Shown here: in pieces, positions 7,725 to 42,740 of the stretch
Numbering within the stretch: position 1 is the stretch's first letter
Layout: each line of letters opens with the position of its first letter
Source of the DNA: Candidatus Hydrogenedentota bacterium
Lineage (GTDB): Bacteria > Hydrogenedentota > Hydrogenedentia > Hydrogenedentales > JAEUWI01
Reading direction: 5' to 3'
DNA length: 64,000 nt
NCBI GenBank assembly: GCA_016791475.1
Contig: JAEUWI010000006.1
Location: forward strand, 62,001 to 126,000
The notes under the pieces: model-generated
What the model was told of the DNA's origin: nothing
Databases searched by the model: none
Seen by the model: only the letters and a program-made list of their open reading frames with translations
Program-made: the position numbers and the translations under genes

Positions 7725-8183
7725 ATGTCCGAACCAAGAGAATCATCCCTGCTTCGTATGGACAATGTCGGTATTATCGTGGAAAACCTCGACGCGGCAA
7801 TCGCCTTCTTTGTCGAGCTGGGCCTGGAGCTGGAGGGCAAGGCGACGGTGGAGGGCGAATGGGTGGACCGCCTTATCGCACTGGAGGGCGCGCAGTGTGA
7901 CATGGCCATGCTGCGGACGCCCGATGGGAACAGCCGTATTGAGCTGAGCAGCTTTCGGAAGCCAAAGGCCATCGGCGGGGAACCCAACGCGCCGGTAAAC
8001 ACGCTCGGCCTGCGCCGCCTCATGTTCGCCGTCACGGACATAGACGACGTCGTTGAGCGCCTCCGGAAGCACGGCGCCGAATTGATGGGCGAGGTGGTGC
8101 AATACGAGGATTTCTACCGCCTCTGCTATCTGCGCGGCCCCGAGGGCATCATGATCGCATTGGCGCAACCGCTGCGCGATTGA
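7725..8183 (+). CDS. VOC (glyoxalase/bleomycin-resistance) superfamily protein
   Basis: The 152-residue protein has the paired beta-alpha-beta-beta-beta layout of the vicinal oxygen chelate fold. The first module begins MDNVGIIVENLDAAIAFF and the second LRRLMFAVTDIDDVVERL; the protein ends YLRGPEGIMIALAQPL, where the Glu is a likely metal ligand. Members include glyoxalase I, dioxygenases and antibiotic-modifying enzymes, and nothing here fixes the substrate. The start at 7725 has AAGGAA upstream (7712-7717). It sits 19 bp after purQ and may be read from the same transcript without being part of purine synthesis. Confidence 0.8.
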   Translation: MSEPRESSLLRMDNVGIIVENLDAAIAFFVELGLELEGKATVEGEWVDRLIALEGAQCDMAMLRTPDGNSRIELSSFRKPKAIGGEPNAPVNTLGLRRLMFAVTDIDDVVERLRKHGAELMGEVVQYEDFYRLCYLRGPEGIMIALAQPLRD

Positions 8184-8283
8184 GTCGACCCGCCGCCCGG
8201 CCGGAGACCAATGGCCCGAAGCGCCCCATTGCCCCCTGCGGGCCCGCGGAAATACGCTATATGCAATAGGGTGCGCTCTCCCG

Positions 8284-8289
8284 TATAAT
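8284..8289 (+). promoter_or_regulatory. Candidate sigma70 -10 box upstream of rnd
   Basis: A perfect TATAAT lies in the gap before the RNase D gene, with only a weak -35 candidate near 8260. Transcription would begin around 8296, leaving a very short leader if the GTG at 8308 is the start. Confidence 0.4.
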
Positions 8290-8307
8290 AGACGTATAGA
8301 AGGAGGC

Positions 8308-9492
8308 GTGTCGGTAGGCACCGCCTTGGGAAAGCCTGTGACGTTAGCACCTTGCGAATATATCGACACCCAGGCGGGCTGGGACCGCTGCGTTGCATTG
8401 TTTCATCAGGAGCCCGCGGTCGCCATTGACCTGGAGGCCAACAGCCTCTTCGCCTATCGGGAGCAGGTCTGCCTGCTCCAGTTCTCCACCGCATCGGCGG
8501 ATTTCATCGTGGATCCCCTGGCGGGTATCGATCTGACCGCCTTCGGCGATCTCCTCGCCGATCCCAATGTGGAGAAGGTATTTCACGCATCCGAATATGA
8601 TCTGATGCTACTCAAACGCGACCACGAGTGGGGCATCCGCAACCTCTTCGATACCATGTGGGCCGCCCGGATCCTGGGTTTCAAGAACATGGGACTCGCC
8701 TGGTTCCTCCGCGAATTCTACGGCGTGGAAGTCAGCAAGAAATACCAGAAGGCCAACTGGGCCGCCCGACCCCTCTCCCCCGATCTGCTGGCCTATGCCC
8801 AGACCGACACCCACTATCTCCTGCGCCTGCGCGACGATCTGTCGGCCCTGCTGGAAGAGGCCGGGTGCATGGAAGAGGCCCGGGAGATCTTCGCCCATCA
8901 GGCCGAGGTGCGCCTGCCCGACCAGGGCTTTGATCCGGAGGGCTTCTGGGCCCTGCGCGGCGCACGCGATCTTTCACAGGAACAGATGGCCGTCTTGAAG
9001 GCCCTGTATTTTTTCCGGGACGACGAGGCGAAGCGCCGCAACCAGCCCGCCTTCAAAGTGATCAACAACGAAGCGCTGGTCAGCATGGCGAAAGAATGCC
9101 CCAAAACGGACCAGGCCCTCGCCGCCATTCGGGGGATCGGTCCGCGCAATCTGGAGCGCTACGGGGCCCAGTTGCTCCGCGTCATACGCAATGCCAGGAA
9201 GGACCCGCCCCCCCAGCGTCCCGCACGCAAGCCCCGCCAGGACCCGCGCGTCCTGGATCGCTACGAACGCCTTTCCCAATGGCGCAAAGAGCGTGCCGTG
9301 GCGCGGGGTGTGGAATCTGACGTGATTATCTCGCGTGAGACCATGTGGAGCATCGCGCGAGACAACCCCAACTCCCTGGACGCGCTGTCCCGAATCAACG
9401 GCATTGGCCCCCAGCGCCTGAATCTGCATGGCGAAGATATCCTCGGTGAACTCACGGAGGGGGACGTCTCCCCCGCACCCGAAGGGGCCTGA
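8308..9492 (+). CDS. rnd: Ribonuclease D-like 3'-5' exoribonuclease with HRDC domains
   Basis: RNase D trims 3' ends of tRNA and other stable RNAs. The DEDD exonuclease core is visible: AIDLEANS (Exo I Asp and Glu) near residue 33, FHASEYDLMLL (Exo II) near 92 and YAQTDTHYLLRL (Exo III, with Tyr and Asp) near 157. Two HRDC-type helical regions follow, roughly residues 210-295 and 315-385, both ending in an I-GIGP motif. Length (394) is normal. The start is uncertain: an AGGAGG at 8301-8306 lies only one base before GTG 8308, so the in-frame TTG at 8326 or GTG at 8338 may be used instead. Confidence 0.9.
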   Translation: MSVGTALGKPVTLAPCEYIDTQAGWDRCVALFHQEPAVAIDLEANSLFAYREQVCLLQFSTASADFIVDPLAGIDLTAFGDLLADPNVEKVFHASEYDLMLLKRDHEWGIRNLFDTMWAARILGFKNMGLAWFLREFYGVEVSKKYQKANWAARPLSPDLLAYAQTDTHYLLRLRDDLSALLEEAGCMEEAREIFAHQAEVRLPDQGFDPEGFWALRGARDLSQEQMAVLKALYFFRDDEAKRRNQPAFKVINNEALVSMAKECPKTDQALAAIRGIGPRNLERYGAQLLRVIRNARKDPPPQRPARKPRQDPRVLDRYERLSQWRKERAVARGVESDVIISRETMWSIARDNPNSLDALSRINGIGPQRLNLHGEDILGELTEGDVSPAPEGA

Positions 9493-9676
9493 GCACCCCG
9501 GGGCAATTCCCATCCGCATCACCGATATGGTATATTTTTGCGATTGCGGGGCGCGCCCGAACCGGGCCGAAACCCCAGACCCGTAGAGGACCACCACCAT
9601 CCATTCAGCGCTCCAACATACTGAAGCACAACGGCTTCCCGATGGCCTCGGCAACCGTCTTGCTCAGGTCGCGGGC

Positions 9677-10903
9677 GTGGAATCCGTGCTGGCTGCGGTT
9701 CGCTACCTGCTGGTCATGCTCTACGGTGTACTGAGCTACAAGGAAGTCGCACCCTTCGGCCCCATTCCCTTCGGCCTGCTGTGCGCCTCCTTTCTCGCCC
9801 ACAACGCCTTTGTGCACTTTGTTCACTTCCGCGGCCGAAAGACCCAGTATCTCGGCCATACCAACCTGATGATACATGTGGCCCAGGCGACCCTGCTCGT
9901 CACCCTGACCGGCGCCGAGAAGAGCCCCTTCTGTATCCTCTATTTCTTTCTGCTCCTGGCCCAGGTGCTTTACGCCCCCCACTTCCGCCGGACCTATGCC
10001 GTGATGATTCTCTGCGCCGCGGCCTTTACGCTTGCGGTGTTCGTCCGCTGGACGGTGTGGGGACACGCCCCCGCGCTGCTGCCCCTGTGCGTCACCTACT
10101 TCGGACTCTTCATGTGCTACGAGCTCATCCGCTCCCTGGCGAACCTGCTCTATACCATCGAGCTTGGCCTCCAGATACGCGCCCAGGAACTCGCCTCCTC
10201 CAAGGCAACCCTGCGCACCATACTCGATTCCGCCGACGGCCCCATCGTCGTCTACGACGACAACGAGTTCATCTCCGAGGCCAACGAAAGCGCCTGCGCC
10301 TTTCTTCAATGCCCCCGCGAGTCCCTTCTCGGCACCCGCTTCCGCCAGTTCTTCTTCGACGACGGCACCCTGCCCGGCAAGCTGGCCACGTTAAAGGCCC
10401 GGGGCGAGTATCAGGGCGAAGTGATCGCCGTATTGCCCGAAGGCGACGAACTCAATGTGACCATCTCGGTACGCTCCTACATGCGCGAGGGCCGTCGCTT
10501 TTTCGTGGCCCTGCTCCACGATATCACCGAGCAGAAACACCTCCAGGAGGCGACCCGCAACGCAAACATCCAGCTCGCCAAGATCAACTGGGAATTGCAG
10601 CAGGTGGACACCCTGCGCAACGAGTTCTTCAGCACGATATCCCAGCGGCTCCGATCGCCCCTCTCCGCGATCCTGGGGTATACCGATTTGCTGCTCAACG
10701 AGGAGCTCGGCGAACTGAACGCGCCCCAGCGAAAAGCCCTGCAAACCTGCCGCCGCAGCGTCTCCCGCGTTTTTAGCCTGGTGGATGAAGCCTTCGAGGT
10801 GCAGACACCTAAGCAATTGACAAATCAGTTGACAGTAGATCCGCCGCAGGCGGAACAGTTGACAGCGAGAACGGACACTGCAACAAACGACGTCGCTGAA
10901 TGA
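9677..10903 (+). CDS. Membrane PAS sensor protein with degenerate, truncated histidine-kinase core
   Basis: About five transmembrane segments occupy residues 1-150 (for example VRYLLVMLYGVLSY and FCILYFFLLLAQVLY). A PAS domain follows at about 175-300 (TILDSADGPIVVYDDNEF to VALLHDITEQKHL). The next block, EFFSTISQRLRSPLSAILGY, is a HisKA dimerisation helix in which the phospho-accepting His is replaced by Gln. No HATPase domain follows; the last ~35 residues are encoded by the 5' arm of a repeat array. The protein therefore looks unable to autophosphorylate and may be a sensor/dimerisation partner or a decayed kinase. The frame is open upstream to about 9586 with AGAGG nearby, so a non-ATG start before GTG 9677 is possible. 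Confidence 0.75.
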   Translation: MESVLAAVRYLLVMLYGVLSYKEVAPFGPIPFGLLCASFLAHNAFVHFVHFRGRKTQYLGHTNLMIHVAQATLLVTLTGAEKSPFCILYFFLLLAQVLYAPHFRRTYAVMILCAAAFTLAVFVRWTVWGHAPALLPLCVTYFGLFMCYELIRSLANLLYTIELGLQIRAQELASSKATLRTILDSADGPIVVYDDNEFISEANESACAFLQCPRESLLGTRFRQFFFDDGTLPGKLATLKARGEYQGEVIAVLPEGDELNVTISVRSYMREGRRFFVALLHDITEQKHLQEATRNANIQLAKINWELQQVDTLRNEFFSTISQRLRSPLSAILGYTDLLLNEELGELNAPQRKALQTCRRSVSRVFSLVDEAFEVQTPKQLTNQLTVDPPQAEQLTARTDTATNDVAE

Positions 10904-33835: not shown

Positions 33836-35359
33836 ATGGGTATTGTCATCGGCCTCGACGTGGGCACCAGCGGCACCAAAGCCATCGCCATGAACCAAAA
33901 GGGCGAACTCCTCGCCTCGGCCCTGGTGGAGTATCCCCTGCACGCGCCAAAGCCCAACTGGGCCGAGCAGGACCCTGCGGACTGGAACCGGGCGGCCTTT
34001 GCGGCCCTGGCGGAGCTGGCGGGCAAGGTGGACGCGAAGGAGGTCAAGGGCATCGGCCTCACGGGGCAGATGCACGGCAGCGTGTTCCTGGATAAAGACA
34101 ACAACGTGATCCGTCCCGCGCTCCTCTGGTGCGACCAGCGGACCGCCGCCCAGTGCGACGCCATCACGTCGAAAGTGGGCGAGGCGCGTCTTATCGAGAT
34201 GGTGTCCAACCCCGCGCTCACGGGCTTCACCGCGCCGAAGATCCTCTGGCTGCGGGACAACGAGCCGGAAAACTACGAGCGAGTGAAGAAGGTGCTCCTG
34301 CCCAAGGACTACATCCGCCTGCTGCTCACGGGCGAATTTGCCACGGATGTGGCCGACGCCTCGGGCACGCTCCTCTTCGATGTGAAGAACCGCAAGTGGC
34401 ACACGGAACTCATGGGCATCCTGGGCATCGACACGGATTTCGTGCCCCGCGCCTATGAAGGCCCCGAGGTGACCGGCACGCTGACGGCCGAGGCCGCCGC
34501 GAAGACGGGCCTGCCCGCGGGCATCCCCGTGGTGGCGGGTGGCGGCGATCAGGCCGCCAACGGCGTAGGCTGCGGCATCGTGCGCAAGGGCATAATCTCC
34601 TCGTCCCTTGGCACGAGCGGCGTGGTCTTCGCCTTTGCCGACGACGTGAGCACGGACCCCCTCGGGCGCGTCCACACCTTCTGCCACAGCGTGCCCGGCA
34701 AATGGCACGTGATGGGCGTCATGCTCAGCGCCGGTGGCTCCCTGCGCTGGTACCGCGATACCCTGTGCCAGGCGGAAATCGCCCAGGGCAAGGAAAGTGG
34801 CAAAGACCCCTACGAATACATCACGGCCGCCGCCGCCGAAATCCCCATCGGCTCCGAGGGCCTGGTTTTCCTGCCCTACCTCACTGGCGAACGCACGCCC
34901 CACAAAGACCCGGATGCGAAGGGCGCTTTCATTGGCCTTTCTCTGCGCCACACGAAGGCCCACATGAGCCGGGCCGTCCTGGAGGGCGTGGCCTATGGCA
35001 TGCGCGACAGCCTGGAGATCATGCGCGGCATGGGCGTGGCCGTGGCCGAAGTGCGCACCTCCGGCGGCGGCGCGCGCAGCAAGGTCTGGCGCCAGATGAT
35101 GGCCGACACCGGCAGCGCGCCCATGGTCACCATCAACGTGGACGAAGGCCCGGCCTACGGCGCGGCGATCCTCGCCAGCGTGGCCGCGGGCATGTATGGC
35201 ACGGTGGAAGAAGGCTGTGACGCGATCATCAAAGAGATCAGCCGCCTGGAGCCCAATGCCGCCGCGGTGAAGGCCTATGATCCGTGGTTCGACGAGTACC
35301 AGGCGCTCTACGGCGCGCTGGCGCCAAGGTTCAAGGCGCTGGCGGGGTTGTTGGGGTAG
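33836..35359 (+). CDS. xylB: Xylulokinase (XylB), FGGY kinase family
   Basis: The enzyme phosphorylates D-xylulose to xylulose 5-phosphate for the pentose phosphate pathway. The N-terminal phosphate loop GLDVGTSGTKAIAM, the substrate region GLTGQMHGSVFLD near residue 78, the QRTAAQCD segment and the second-domain motif PVVAGGGDQAANGVGCG near 230 identify FGGY kinases of the xylulokinase type. SGGGARSKVWRQMMADT near 408 is the adenosine-binding motif. Length (507) is typical. No xylose isomerase or transporter is adjacent, so its substrate context is not visible here. Confidence 0.93.
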   Translation: MGIVIGLDVGTSGTKAIAMNQKGELLASALVEYPLHAPKPNWAEQDPADWNRAAFAALAELAGKVDAKEVKGIGLTGQMHGSVFLDKDNNVIRPALLWCDQRTAAQCDAITSKVGEARLIEMVSNPALTGFTAPKILWLRDNEPENYERVKKVLLPKDYIRLLLTGEFATDVADASGTLLFDVKNRKWHTELMGILGIDTDFVPRAYEGPEVTGTLTAEAAAKTGLPAGIPVVAGGGDQAANGVGCGIVRKGIISSSLGTSGVVFAFADDVSTDPLGRVHTFCHSVPGKWHVMGVMLSAGGSLRWYRDTLCQAEIAQGKESGKDPYEYITAAAAEIPIGSEGLVFLPYLTGERTPHKDPDAKGAFIGLSLRHTKAHMSRAVLEGVAYGMRDSLEIMRGMGVAVAEVRTSGGGARSKVWRQMMADTGSAPMVTINVDEGPAYGAAILASVAAGMYGTVEEGCDAIIKEISRLEPNAAAVKAYDPWFDEYQALYGALAPRFKALAGLLG

Positions 35360-35484
35360 AGTTATCGTCTAACAGCGCGATCAGGATACAATCATCTAGC
35401 CGGTTGACTCCGGCTGTTGATTCATGGCTTGTTGTACCCAGCGCGTCTTGGACGGTCTTCCATTCGCCCCAGAAAGGGTCTGAA

Positions 35485-36609
35485 GTGAGTAATTTAAAAC
35501 TGAATACTCTCGACATAAAGAACTACCGTTCTCTGGAGAACGTTCACGTCGAAAAGCTCGGCAGACTTAACCTGATAACGGGTCGAAACAATGTTGGGAA
35601 GTCCTCGCTTCTAGAAGCAGTTCGCCTTTGGGCTTCACGCACAGATGCAAACGCACTCCTGGACATTATAGAAGCACGGGATGAGTCGCTATTGCCAGAC
35701 AATGAAATAAAACCTGAACGGGACGAACGCCAGGGCGATAACTCGCTATTGGGATGCCTATGCCTGTTTGCCGGTTATCCAACAATTGATTTAGTAAGAG
35801 ATCGCATTGAAATTGTTGGTAACGGTGCGACCTTGTCAATCTCAATAATAGAGAAGGAGATGGAGCAGGAAAACCTTCCGGGACTTCAACAGCAACTGGA
35901 CAGTCTGTTTACGAGAACTAAAGTCCTTGAACTTAGCTTCGATTCTCCCCAGAAATCGGTCTATTTGTCTCTTCCAGCGTATTACTCAAGATATCGTAGA
36001 CAAAGATTTCGAGAACCGCGATTCCGGGAGAAGCAGGTAAACATACCGTGCGTCTCTCTGGGCTCCAGTACCCTCGATAGCATAGAGTCCTTCAGTACGG
36101 CCAGTCTTTGGGACAACATCGCACTAACAGATAAAGAAGAATTTGTACTTAGAGGGCTCAAACTAATAGAGCCTCGCATTGATCGAATTAACTTTATTCA
36201 AGGTGGGCGACTAGGGCGTTTTCCAGTTATTCGAGTATCTGGAATTGATCGGCCAATCCCCTTGCATGGGCTTGGCGATGGCGTGACGCGCATATTTGAA
36301 ATCATGCTTGCATTAGTCAACGCGGAGAATGGCTTCCTGCTCATTGATGAATTCGAGAATGGACTACATTATTCCGTACAAGCGATGGCTTGGGAAACTG
36401 TGTTGGAACTTGCGACTATCCTGAATATTCAGGTGTTCGCCACTTCGCATTCGAATGACTGCGTCGAAGCTTTTGAAGTAGTCTCGGAGAACGCGGCTGA
36501 TGAAATGGTTCTAATTCGTCTGACCAGAGGCGATGAAGGAGTCCGAGCAGAAACGCTGAGCAGTTCCAAGCTTTCTCGCCGACTGGAACTCGGCAGGGAG
36601 GTCCGTTAG
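35485..36609 (+). CDS. AAA/ABC-type ATPase (OLD/AbiL/PARIS-like), candidate defence gene
   Basis: The 374-residue protein is a single SMC/ABC-like ATPase domain. It begins NLKLNTLDIKNYRSLENVHV and has a Walker A GRNNVGKSSLLEA near residue 36. A coiled-coil-like insert spans about 80-200. The signature region GDGVTRIFEIMLAL, Walker B GFLLIDEFENGLH and a switch His in VFATSHSNDC follow. This is the ATPase type found with TOPRIM proteins in OLD, PARIS and AbiL-like systems. GTG 35485 has AAAGGG 6 bp upstream. Base composition is visibly more AT-rich than neighbouring genes, suggesting acquisition. Its stop overlaps the next start by one base, so the pair is translationally coupled. Confidence 0.85.
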   Translation: MSNLKLNTLDIKNYRSLENVHVEKLGRLNLITGRNNVGKSSLLEAVRLWASRTDANALLDIIEARDESLLPDNEIKPERDERQGDNSLLGCLCLFAGYPTIDLVRDRIEIVGNGATLSISIIEKEMEQENLPGLQQQLDSLFTRTKVLELSFDSPQKSVYLSLPAYYSRYRRQRFREPRFREKQVNIPCVSLGSSTLDSIESFSTASLWDNIALTDKEEFVLRGLKLIEPRIDRINFIQGGRLGRFPVIRVSGIDRPIPLHGLGDGVTRIFEIMLALVNAENGFLLIDEFENGLHYSVQAMAWETVLELATILNIQVFATSHSNDCVEAFEVVSENAADEMVLIRLTRGDEGVRAETLSSSKLSRRLELGREVR

Positions 36610-37337
36610 TGGCACTCGACGCGCGGCACGTCATTCTTGTAGAGGGGATGGACGATTTACATACGATTGCTGGATTCTTCAATCGACTTAAACTCACAGA
36701 GTTCCGTGCAAAGGAGAAACAAACACTTTCGCTGCGGTGGCGCGATAGCGAGGTAAACTTGGACATTGTGTCGTCGGGCGGGATCGACGAGGCCAAGGAT
36801 TTTGCCAAAACCCTTGCCGACATTGAAATGCTGGACGACTGCAAGGCGCTTGCGCTGGTCGTGGATGCCGATGAGAACCCAATTGATCGCTGGCGCTCCG
36901 TGGCGGCCACGCTACGGTTAAACGGGCACGAGCCGCCGCCGATCCCTTCGCCGACCGGAACCATCCTGAATTCCGCTTCCGCCGTGATTCCCCGCATCGG
37001 CGTTTGGATCATGCCGGACAATCAGCAGGCGGGCATGCTGGAGACTTTTCTCGGCATGTGCGTCCCACAACGTGGCGAGAACCCCATCTGGCAACGGGCG
37101 CTTGCTCAGACCGACTTCGTGAAGACCGAAATTTCGGAATCTTCGCGTTTTAAGGACGTGCATTTGGACAAGGCCCGAATCCACAGCTATCTTGCGTGGA
37201 ACGACCCGCCGGGAGTTCCGCTGGGGCAGGCGGTATTGAAGAAGATTCTCGATCCGAGTAGCGAGCAGGCGGCGGTATTTCTTCAGTGGATTCGGGATGT
37301 GTTTGAGTTTCGCAGTCCTTCGGGGGATGAAAGCTAA
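36609..37337 (+). CDS. TOPRIM-like (DUF3226-type) protein partnered with the ATPase
   Basis: The 242-residue product starts RHVILVEGMDDLHTIAGFF, in which VEGMDD matches the TOPRIM glutamate motif. About 70 residues later KALALVVDADENPIDRW supplies the DxD motif. This is the DUF3226-like form of TOPRIM, a metal-dependent nuclease or nucleotidyl-transfer fold. A C-terminal helical part (KARIHSYLAWNDPPGVPLGQ) follows, similar to that of known DUF3226 proteins. GTG 36609 overlaps the ATPase TAG by one base. Together they form a two-gene cassette with the composition of PARIS (AriA/AriB) or AbiL, although sequence identity to either cannot be judged by eye. Confidence 0.78.
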   Translation: MALDARHVILVEGMDDLHTIAGFFNRLKLTEFRAKEKQTLSLRWRDSEVNLDIVSSGGIDEAKDFAKTLADIEMLDDCKALALVVDADENPIDRWRSVAATLRLNGHEPPPIPSPTGTILNSASAVIPRIGVWIMPDNQQAGMLETFLGMCVPQRGENPIWQRALAQTDFVKTEISESSRFKDVHLDKARIHSYLAWNDPPGVPLGQAVLKKILDPSSEQAAVFLQWIRDVFEFRSPSGDES

Positions 37338-40361: not shown

Positions 40362-40712
40362 TCACACGTTGTGCGACAAACCCCTGATCCACGCCCGGAC
40401 ACGTCGGCTCCGGGCCCGGCCCTCGGGATCAATAAAGCTCATGGCAAAGCAGGCCAGCCAGAAACCCAGATTCAGCAGCCCGTTCTGAAACCACCACACC
40501 GCCACAGCAAGCGCCGCGAATACAACCAAGCGGTACTTGAAGGGGAGTCGATACACCGCCGGATCACTCGCCAACAGCACGATGATAAGCCGATAGAGCA
40601 CCATCAGTGGTCCAAATACATAGGGCAATTGATCGATTCCACCATCAATCGCAAAGGCCCCGAGAATGACAAAGGCCGGATAGCCGATCAGCTTCGCAAT
40701 ATCCCGTTTCAA
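40362..40712 (-). CDS. Small membrane protein, tandem paralogue 3
   Basis: The 116-residue protein begins LKRDIAKLIGYPAFVILGAF and has about three or four hydrophobic segments (FGPLMVLYRLIIVLLA, LVVFAALAVAVWWF, GFWLACFAMSFI), followed by an Arg-rich tail. It is the third of three adjacent paralogues. A TTG start at 40712 overlaps the stop of the preceding gene as TTGA, giving translational coupling. Unlike the others it lacks the FGQSRSDD ending. The family and function are unknown to me. Confidence 0.6.
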   Translation of the reverse strand: MKRDIAKLIGYPAFVILGAFAIDGGIDQLPYVFGPLMVLYRLIIVLLASDPAVYRLPFKYRLVVFAALAVAVWWFQNGLLNLGFWLACFAMSFIDPEGRARSRRVRAWIRGLSHNV

Positions 40713-41047
40713 AAGTCGTCGCTCCGCGATTGGCCGAATACGTCGGCTCCGGGTCTGGCCCACGCGAATAACCCCATGGTATGAGCAGCCATCATCCAGC
40801 CTATGTACAACGGCCAAATCTGTATCCACCACGCGGCTACGGCAAGAATTGCGAGGACAATTAGGCGGCCAATGAAAGGAAGTTGATACGCCGCCGGATC
40901 GCTCGCCAATAGCATGATAACCAACGGATACATCAGCATCAGAGGAACGAAAAGCCAAGGGAATTGCTTGGTTGCCCCATCTACCACCACGGCCCCCAGG
41001 ATGACAAAGGCCAGATAGCCGATCAGCTTCGCAATATCCCGTCTCAC
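40709..41047 (-). CDS. Small membrane protein, tandem paralogue 2
   Basis: The 112-residue product starts RRDIAKLIGYLAFVILGAVV, contains hydrophobic segments VPLMLMYPLVIMLLA and LIVLAILAVAAWWI, and ends VFGQSRSDDF. Its GTG start overlaps the stop of paralogue 1 as GTGA, and its own stop overlaps paralogue 3. N-terminus and C-terminal tag are conserved among copies, while the middle varies. No known family is recognised. Confidence 0.65.
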   Translation of the reverse strand: MRRDIAKLIGYLAFVILGAVVVDGATKQFPWLFVPLMLMYPLVIMLLASDPAAYQLPFIGRLIVLAILAVAAWWIQIWPLYIGWMMAAHTMGLFAWARPGADVFGQSRSDDF

Positions 41048-41433
41048 AGGTCGTCGCTCCGCGATTGGCCGAACACGCGGTTATAGGCCCGTTCTTCCCG
41101 GTCTTTCCACCAGGGATCTCTCTGCCGTGCCACCAAGAGACAGGTCGTGACAGCCACAAACGGCAACCAGACCAGAAACAATCCGATGACTCGTAGTTCC
41201 AACACGTACAACAAAATCATAATCAGCCCCGGCACACCCATGCTCATCCGCAGGTGCGTGTGTGGTACACGAAGGATCGCGGGGTCGAAAGCAATCACGA
41301 ACGTCCCAATGAAGTATGCCGCGAGCGCACAGAAAAAGATGAGAGGCGCATAGTGCAGGGACTGGTCCACCACCACGGCCCCTGGAAAGATAAAGGCCGG
41401 ATAGCCAATGATTTTCGCGATGTCCTTCGTCAT
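41044..41433 (-). CDS. Small membrane protein, tandem paralogue 1
   Basis: The 129-residue protein begins MTKDIAKIIGYPAFIFPGAV, has hydrophobic stretches around IFFCALAAYFIGTFVIAF and PGLIMILLYVLELRVIGLFL, and ends RVFGQSRSDDL. It is the first gene of a three-gene coupled set read leftward. Directly upstream, the minus strand encodes a short open stretch (ILVRTLERWGF) that is also found upstream of the separate paralogue at 42360, so the duplication unit was larger than one gene. The function is unknown. Confidence 0.65.
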   Translation of the reverse strand: MTKDIAKIIGYPAFIFPGAVVVDQSLHYAPLIFFCALAAYFIGTFVIAFDPAILRVPHTHLRMSMGVPGLIMILLYVLELRVIGLFLVWLPFVAVTTCLLVARQRDPWWKDREERAYNRVFGQSRSDDL

Positions 41434-41615
41434 AAGTCAGGCTCCTGCGGCGCAGGGAAGCCCCAGCGCTCAAGAGTCCGCACCAGGATCAGCCGCTGGG
41501 TTGAGTGTACGCCGAGGTCGCTTGGATTACAACACCATGCGTGGTCACGTGGCGATAATTGACAAATATTGCCATCGCTGATAGGATTGTCGTACGGCAA
41601 ATAAAATTGGAGTTC

Positions 41616-41849
41616 ATGGTTATGGCCAGCAGCCTGAATCTATCTTTGACAGACGAATTGCGACGTTTTGTCGATTCCCGCACAGGTGACGGGGGTCTTT
41701 ATTCGACGCCCAGCGAGTACGTTCGTGATCTAATCCGGCGCGACATGCAGGATTGGAAAATCGCGGCGGACATTGCTCAGGGCATCCGGGAAGTGTCGGA
41801 AGGGCGATTTGCGAACGAGTCCATTCTCGATATTCTGAACGAGGATTAG
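41616..41849 (+). CDS. parD: ParD-like antitoxin
   Basis: The 77-residue protein starts MVMASSLNLSLTDELRRFVD, an N-terminal ribbon-helix-helix, and continues STPSEYVRDLIRRDMQDWKI, the usual ParD/CopG dimer core, with an acidic C-terminal tail that would wrap the toxin. It should neutralise the downstream ParE-like protein and repress the operon. The ATG at 41616 or 41622 gives the family length; the frame is open further upstream. It is followed after 6 bp by the toxin. Confidence 0.82.
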   Translation: MVMASSLNLSLTDELRRFVDSRTGDGGLYSTPSEYVRDLIRRDMQDWKIAADIAQGIREVSEGRFANESILDILNED

Positions 41850-41855
41850 ACTCGG

Positions 41856-42236
41856 GTGGCCCGGAAAGAGTGCGGCTATGTCCTTTCGCCCACGGCACGA
41901 AATCACCTCCGGGAGGCGAAGCGGTGGTCGTTGGAGCGATGGGGAAGGAAACTTACCGAGGCCTACTTCTCGGATTTGGACGCGTCGGCCCGAAAAATTG
42001 CCGCCAACTACACCAGCCTGCCTTCGCGAATCGACCTGACCGGCGACGCCATTCTTCACGCCTACCCCGCGCGAGAGCACTTTCTGATTTATGTTCCGCT
42101 TGAGACGGGGCAAATTGCCATCGTCGCCGTGATTCGACAAGGGCGTGATCTGCCCAGAGTACTTGCCCAGTATCGTTTCACGATAAGGAAAGAATTGGAG
42201 GCCCTCCACAAGTCCAAGGGTCAACGCTCAGAGTAA
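41856..42236 (+). CDS. parE: ParE-like toxin
   Basis: The 126-residue protein has a RelE/ParE fold: YVLSPTARNHLREAKRWSLE, then KLTEAYFSDLDASARKIAAN, then AREHFLIYVPLETGQIAIVA and VIRQGRDLPRVL. ParE toxins poison DNA gyrase; other family members cut mRNA. A GTG start at 41856 follows the antitoxin by 6 bp. The pair is inserted next to a truncated member of the membrane-paralogue array, consistent with mobility. Confidence 0.82.
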   Translation: MARKECGYVLSPTARNHLREAKRWSLERWGRKLTEAYFSDLDASARKIAANYTSLPSRIDLTGDAILHAYPAREHFLIYVPLETGQIAIVAVIRQGRDLPRVLAQYRFTIRKELEALHKSKGQRSE

Positions 42237-42362
42237 TCCTTGGGCACCGTATGGCGAGCGCGTATTCCAACGGAATGCAGCCACCGATTCCGCCATCAGT
42301 CGCCAGGGCCCCAAAAATAAAGGCGGCCGGATAGCCGATCAGCTTCACAATATCCCGCTCTA
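42237..42362 (-). pseudogene. Truncated copy of the small membrane paralogue
   Basis: Reading leftward from about 42362, ERDIVKLIGYPAAFIFGALA matches the start of the paralogues at 41433, 41047 and 40712. Similarity stops after about 30 codons, close to the end of the ParDE module. The copy seems to have been cut by that module's insertion or an associated deletion. Confidence 0.6.
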
Positions 42363-42740
42363 GAGGTCGTTGCTCCGCGATTGACCGAACACGCGGGTGC
42401 GCACCCGTCCCCGGACACTTGCCCAGAAGCGCCGAAGGCGTGCCCGCTCCGCCGTATAGTTCGGACCCGTCAACCAGATGGCTGCAATAACCATGAACTG
42501 TAGTGGCCAACGCTGAAGCCAACAGGATATTGCCACGGCAATCCCGCTAACCAGCGCGCGGTAGAAGAAGTGAGGGCAATCCATCAGGGGATCGCGCGCC
42601 ATCAGAATAACAATGACGGGGTAAATCACGATCAAGGGAAGAAACAGAATCGGCGCATGGAGAATCGACCAATCAAGCGCCAGACCGCCTAGCAATACGA
42701 AGAGCGGGAATTCGATCATTTTTTCCCAGTAGAGATTCAT
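42360..42740 (-). CDS. Small membrane protein, tandem paralogue 0
   Basis: The 126-residue product has hydrophobic segments FPLFVLLGGLALDW, ILFLPLIVIYPVIVILMA and LQFMVIAAIWLTG. It ends RVFGQSRSNDL, the same C-terminal tag as paralogues 1 and 2, and its stop overlaps the start of the truncated copy at 42362. Its N-terminus (MNLYWEKMIEFPLFVLLGGL) is more diverged. The upstream ILVRTLERWGF-encoding stretch is shared with paralogue 1. I recognise no function. Confidence 0.6.
   Translation of the reverse strand: MNLYWEKMIEFPLFVLLGGLALDWSILHAPILFLPLIVIYPVIVILMARDPLMDCPHFFYRALVSGIAVAISCWLQRWPLQFMVIAAIWLTGPNYTAERARLRRFWASVRGRVRTRVFGQSRSNDL

Follow-up and report, generated by a model that had tools for sequence, protein, structure and literature searches.

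A mobile ATPase–DUF3226 TOPRIM gene pair in Candidatus Hydrogenedentota: a probable immune cassette akin to AbiL and PARIS

The window analysed here – 64,000 nucleotides of contig JAEUWI010000006.1 from a Candidatus Hydrogenedentota bacterium – contains, among metabolic genes, a cassette of two genes on the forward strand. The first (35485..36609) encodes an OLD-type ABC ATPase of 374 amino acids and the second (36609..37337) a DUF3226 TOPRIM protein of 242 amino acids; both begin with GTG and both reading frames are intact. The initial annotation described the genes as overlapping by one base, and indeed the single base G36609 is common to the ATPase stop and the TOPRIM start (TTAGTG). A leader on the same strand (35360..35484) separates the cassette from a xylulokinase-like gene. 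It carries the sequence AAAGGG, which resembles a ribosome-binding site, shortly before the GTG of the ATPase, and a pattern scan of the leader revealed no convincing sigma-70 promoter on the forward strand. The next gene downstream of the cassette is an esterase on the opposite strand. Assignment of the two proteins to Pfam families is far beyond chance: the ATPase matches AAA_15 (1.2e-23) and the TOPRIM protein matches DUF3226 (PF11536, 1.6e-50).

That the ATPase gene is richer in AT than its neighbours had been remarked upon from the letters alone, and measurement bears this out. Its GC content of 47.1% is the lowest of 503 window stretches of equal length (mean 60.8, sd 3.2), and its third-position GC stands at 45.6% versus 88% in the adjoining kinase gene; the TOPRIM gene, at 56.7%, falls in between. 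At a distance of 4 kb from the cassette, in a region of lower GC, lies a likely ParD/ParE-type toxin-antitoxin pair (41559-42236), the ParE_toxin match scoring 22 bits against a cut-off of 23. Several similar small frames, reminiscent of membrane proteins, are arranged in tandem on the reverse strand between 40362 and 42740 (for example 40709-41047, 41044-41433 and 42360-42740), and the 40-43 kb stretch of the window is variable among relatives.

All of the motifs quoted in the initial annotation – GRNNVGKS, LLIDEFENGLH, VEGMDD and LVVDADEN – are present. In the ATPase they form part of an ordered series comprising Walker A (GRNNVGKS, residues 33-40), a signature-like LGDG (263-266), Walker B (LLIDEFENGLH, with D288/E289), a D-loop-type histidine (H295), an H-loop histidine (H322) and a C-terminal tail, E372-V-R374. 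H295 lies seven residues after the Walker B aspartate D288, a spacing identical to that of the D-loop histidine of P2 OLD (D299/H306; PMC7049728), and the catalytic columns of the alignment, including the residues of ATP hydrolysis, are kept. The predicted model (mean pLDDT 76.8) has an SMC/Rad50-type head, and fold comparison places it as close to the heads of PtuA, AriA and GajA (Z 16.7-17.8) as to condensin and Rad50 (all within Z 16-18).

The C-terminal tail, encoded at 36598-36609, is a conserved feature. An exact C-terminal E-x-R was found in 63 of 70 ATPases, and most of the remainder carry the motif, or one closely similar, within a few residues; it is not seen in ten ATPases, AriA-type or fused, whose genes adjoin AriB-model matches. 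Residues 364-374 fall below pLDDT 50 in the monomer model, and the tail is probably disordered in the monomer. From these two sets of ATPases we infer that E-x-R serves in docking or control and is peculiar to the branch that contains PDC-M38 and AbiL.

The TOPRIM protein, which has a helical C-terminal part, carries E12, D16, D86-x-D88, E145 and K188 in the order characteristic of OLD nucleases. E12, G142, E145 and K188 are invariant in 40 relatives, D86 and D88 are nearly so, and D16 lies four residues after E12, at the E+4 position. In BpOLD, metal A is bound by E400, D455 and D457, metal B by E404, T506 and E508, and the lysine is K562 (PMC6755086). Mapped on to these residues by sequence order and fold rather than by coordinates, the TOPRIM protein agrees with BpOLD in residue order and in E+4 spacing, and thus the OLD two-metal site appears to be present, complete apart from T506, for which the window protein has no clear counterpart. 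The initial annotation had named loss of the acidic residues as grounds for abandoning its reading; E12, D16, D86, D88 and E145 are all in place.

Further evidence comes from the predicted structure of the TOPRIM protein (mean pLDDT 80.4, pTM 0.82), which, like that of the ATPase, rests on an alignment of only 11 sequences. Its closest solved fold is 2p62, the uncharacterised protein PH0156 of Pyrococcus horikoshii (Z 14.9 over 201 residues), followed by BpOLD (6nk8, Z 9.2) and XccOLD (Z 8.8). Glyoxalase-like proteins, ranked after 2p62 by Foldseek alone, gave poor rmsd and were regarded as noise. The comparison with AriA and AriB proposed in the initial annotation, made here with separate monomer models, gave a divided answer: the AriA head matches the ATPase at Z 16.9, but AriB matches the TOPRIM model at only Z 7.0, which does not rise above the general background of VIA-align (around 7, a value shared by nucleoside phosphorylases and Arf GTPases), and therefore the AriB fold match alone proves nothing. 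A profile search of the PDB placed AriB as the top match to the TOPRIM protein, but with an E-value of only 0.026.

The two genes are consistently linked. The survey covered 79 DUF3226 loci, drawn from proteobacteria, cyanobacteria (the stronger matches, about 40 weaker ones being set aside), the window's own phylum, plasmids and viral contigs; contig ends truncate two of them. A Walker-A ATPase gene lies directly upstream and on the same strand in every one of the 77 loci with enough upstream sequence (in seven that escaped the Walker-B pattern it was found by direct inspection), and the gap between the genes is mostly -11 to +9 nt. Across 68 genomes of the window's phylum, a search with the ATPase returned exactly the same eight genomes and places as DUF3226; in none of the 68 does either gene occur alone. 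The ATPase and DUF3226 genes are obligately linked. Homologues that never co-occur, or that sit in conserved housekeeping contexts, were named in the initial annotation as telling against a defence operon; co-occurrence is the rule in these surveys, and this objection, like that of missing acidic residues, did not hold. One proteobacterial genome carries two complete cassettes in tandem (locus L093, G549:C199:27200-29600), in the order ATPase-DUF3226-ATPase-DUF3226, both ATPases ending in EIR.

The pair is patchily distributed, present above the family cut-off in 8 of 68 genomes of the window's phylum and in 56 of 292 and 12 of 398 genomes of two further phyla. Of the three other genomes of the genus, two are without any DUF3226 and the third has a different copy. 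Homology between the window and relatives ends at the stop codon of the kinase gene (35357-35359) and resumes at about 37503, the cassette filling the gap between two blocks that the relatives conserve; since the kinase and esterase genes reside on different contigs in those relatives, we conclude that the cassette fills a breakpoint. On a phylogenetic tree, copies from the window's own phylum are not clustered (six changes, versus a mean of 6.8 when shuffled), and at least three of the own-phylum changes are forced by well-supported branches, a scatter that fits horizontal transfer.

The pair is carried on mobile elements. Plasmids of 3.8-13 kb from Salmonella, Klebsiella, Citrobacter and Acinetobacter hold the pair as cargo (among them a 4.07 kb plasmid of Klebsiella, a 6.4 kb plasmid of Citrobacter, and plasmids of 9.7 and 13.1 kb of Acinetobacter), and it is the main cargo of two plasmids of about 4 kb: a Klebsiella ColRNAI plasmid of 4167 bp (L174:1984-3731) and a Salmonella plasmid of 3793 bp (L173:535-2289). 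With the ATPase of a distant relative as query, 144 plasmid records were returned, 131 of them from Klebsiella, of which one from Klebsiella and the Salmonella one were examined. Of 5426 complete E. coli genomes, just one has the Salmonella version. While tblastn found no match among phage GenBank records, viral contigs gave five places with a match. One of these contigs (L138, 10.2 kb) belongs to a filamentous phage, with a Zot-like assembly protein, an SSB, a minor coat protein and a repressor-like gene, directly downstream of which lies the ATPase/DUF3226 pair (7812-9907).

The genes that surround the pair are less telling. When 139 proteins encoded near the pair at 25 loci were scanned with PADLOC, with no matched control, no model matched more than four of them, and Pfam matches of neighbouring genes, likewise with no matched control, were mostly to housekeeping families. 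The argument from a defence island is weak: the pair sits among metabolic genes in the window and has few defence-model matches nearby elsewhere. In some related cyanobacteria (L102, L103, L104 and L109) the pair lies near a gene with the length and family of alanyl-tRNA synthetase (alaS), a proximity that probably reflects shared descent of the insertion site.

To which system, then, does the pair belong? Among PADLOC models the best match of the ATPase is PDC-M38A (PDLC04611, 9e-85, residues 6-373 of 374) and that of the TOPRIM protein is PDC-M38B (PDLC04624, 9.1e-42), so that the model search envisaged in the initial annotation leads to a candidate anti-phage system for both proteins. PDC-M38, which already stood in PADLOC-DB in 2023, has two genes in the same order and a DUF3226 effector; nothing decisive sets the window pair apart, and its proteins share no more than about 40% identity with the closest relatives found in our searches. 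The pair is therefore not a new system but one already catalogued as a candidate. Our literature search found no paper naming DUF3226, PF11536 or PDC-M38 as an anti-phage system, and no report of anti-phage activity for any DUF3226 pair.

Close to PDC-M38 stands AbiL of Lactococcus (AbiLi/AbiLii), likewise a plasmid-borne two-gene operon with a TOPRIM/RloB-type effector. The window ATPase matches the AbiLi model (PDLC02336) at 1.3e-57 over its full length, including the last profile position, but the window TOPRIM protein has no match to the AbiLii model in a PADLOC search with E up to 1, and AbiL as an exact identity is ruled out. The PDC-M38B model matches all 40 aligned DUF3226 relatives, whereas the AbiLii model matches two, both distant, and the AriB model one. 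Because those two relatives match AbiLii and every aligned ATPase matches AbiLi, the pair is not sharply separate from AbiL, and by these sequence models the boundary between the two is gradual. The idea that this is a DUF3226-effector version distinct from AriB and AbiLii is thus upheld in that neither model recognises the window TOPRIM protein, but is tempered by the existing entry for PDC-M38 and by the gradual boundary with AbiL.

PARIS (AriA/AriB) shares with the window pair an OLD-type ABC ATPase and a TOPRIM effector as separate proteins. The window ATPase matches AriA models at 7.5e-23 and 7.9e-22, far below its matches to PDC-M38A and AbiLi. The AriB model has no match to the window TOPRIM protein (same search, E up to 1), which rules out PARIS as an exact identity, and the E-x-R tail is not seen in the ten ATPases encoded beside AriB-model matches. 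By structure and by its ATPase the pair nonetheless falls in the same wider group as PARIS and AbiL. With the OLD nucleases (BpOLD, TsOLD, GajA) it shares the order in which the residues for metal A and metal B and the lysine follow one another, as well as the OLD-type histidine at the D-loop position. It differs from them in that ATPase and TOPRIM domains, which share one polypeptide in OLD classes 1-3, are encoded by two genes in the window and the other loci examined, and in having no helicase partner. Gabija is ruled out by the lack of an adjoining GajB helicase, the downstream gene being the esterase on the other strand, and Septu by the nature of the partner, a DUF3226 TOPRIM protein and not the HNH nuclease PtuB. 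For MADS, in which MAD3 and MAD4 belong to the larger mad operon, the mad4 match to the window pair is only weak (7.9e-5).

What we have observed is a gene pair, obligately linked and mobile, in which both proteins retain catalytic residues. We think it probable that this is a mobile OLD-ABC/TOPRIM immune cassette, kin to lactococcal AbiL and following the same logic as PARIS, in which the ATPase would sense infection and otherwise restrain a nuclease that aborts it. The ATPase would assemble into an ATP-bound multimer that binds the TOPRIM protein and holds it in check; once it sensed part of a phage, or some action of the phage directed at the host, it would release or switch on its partner; and the TOPRIM protein, as a two-metal nuclease, would cut nucleic acid such that growth stops before phage is made (abortive infection). 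Complex formation, restraint, triggering, cleavage and growth arrest are steps that we infer by analogy with relatives. In PARIS, an ABC ATPase serves as sensor of a phage protein and activates the tRNase AriB (PMC12409363, PMC12839542), and AAA/TOPRIM_OLD pairs of Clostridium and Streptococcus were reported to act in E. coli as toxin and neutraliser (PMC10440598). As to substrate we lean slightly towards RNA or tRNA, on the analogy of AriB, over DNA, for which the analogy is with the nucleases of OLD and Gabija, whose active site the TOPRIM protein keeps. Published observations count against this explanation, as does the weak case for a defence island: in E. coli, lactococcal AbiLii showed no toxicity (PMC3985639), a pair of AAA type that has a different toxin gave no protection against BASEL phages (PMC10440598), and some OLD ATPases act in the cell cycle and not in defence, as does the archaeal Cran1 (PMC12796447). 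The reading of the locus as a defence operon has come through nearly every computational test run and is largely right: the genes are inseparable, patchily distributed and mobile, the acidic residues are in place and the best models are those of PDC-M38, while the neighbouring genes scanned show no clear enrichment for defence.

The conserved OLD two-metal site and catalytic lysine, as in the processive DNase BpOLD (PMC6755086), together with the place of OLD DNases as the closest characterised folds behind 2p62, raise the prospect that the TOPRIM protein acts on DNA, destroying that of invading phages or plasmids in the manner of Gabija or Wadjet and leaving the host alive. We judge this unlikely, though worth serious consideration: RNase M5 and the tRNase AriB work with a similar site, a helicase partner is absent, and the closest two-gene relatives are described as abortive infection systems. 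Improbable, too, is an addiction module, in which the ATPase would only neutralise a toxic TOPRIM nuclease and the pair would serve to keep plasmids or genomic segments, defence being incidental or absent. Such a role would sit well with the pair being the main cargo of several tiny plasmids, with the neutraliser gene coming first, and with reports that related AAA/TOPRIM_OLD pairs of Clostridium and Streptococcus behave in E. coli as toxin plus neutraliser (PMC10440598). It accords poorly with complete catalytic machinery in both proteins (a mere neutraliser has no need of ATP hydrolysis residues), with the relatedness of AbiL and PARIS, both phage-exclusion systems, and with a filamentous phage that carries the pair next to a repressor-like gene. 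A chromosomal housekeeping or repair function resembling that of Cran1 in the cell cycle (PMC12796447) is very hard to credit. In its favour, the ATPase fold resembles SMC/Rad50 heads as closely as it does defence ATPases, and some cyanobacterial copies lie near alaS; against it stand the patchy distribution of the pair, its lack in close relatives, its carriage by plasmids and phage and its scatter on the tree. Equally remote is the idea that horizontal transfer left behind a copy now decayed or inactive, which the long end branch of the TOPRIM row (1.27) might suggest but which intact frames and kept catalytic columns contradict.

New in this study are the obligate linkage of the genes, their co-occurrence in the same eight genomes, their carriage as plasmid and phage cargo, the scatter of copies on the tree, the apparent two-metal site and the E-x-R tail. 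By tying an uncharacterised domain, DUF3226, to a fixed ATPase partner, an apparently complete nuclease active site and a mobile lifestyle, these data make a database candidate directly testable. Compact natural versions are suggested by plasmids of about 4 kb that carry little else, and the conserved C-terminal tail supplies a specific hypothesis for how a sensor may control its nuclease in the branch of AbiL and PDC-M38. If confirmed, the cassette would extend the split OLD-ABC/TOPRIM systems by a further arm and help to explain why filamentous phages and tiny plasmids carry such pairs. More tentatively, and as a possibility that we would not press, DUF3226 pairs may constitute a separate and widespread class of split OLD systems with a trigger and target unlike those of PARIS, in which E-x-R would act as a latch, either restraining the nuclease or setting it off, and which filamentous phages and small plasmids would use against competitors.
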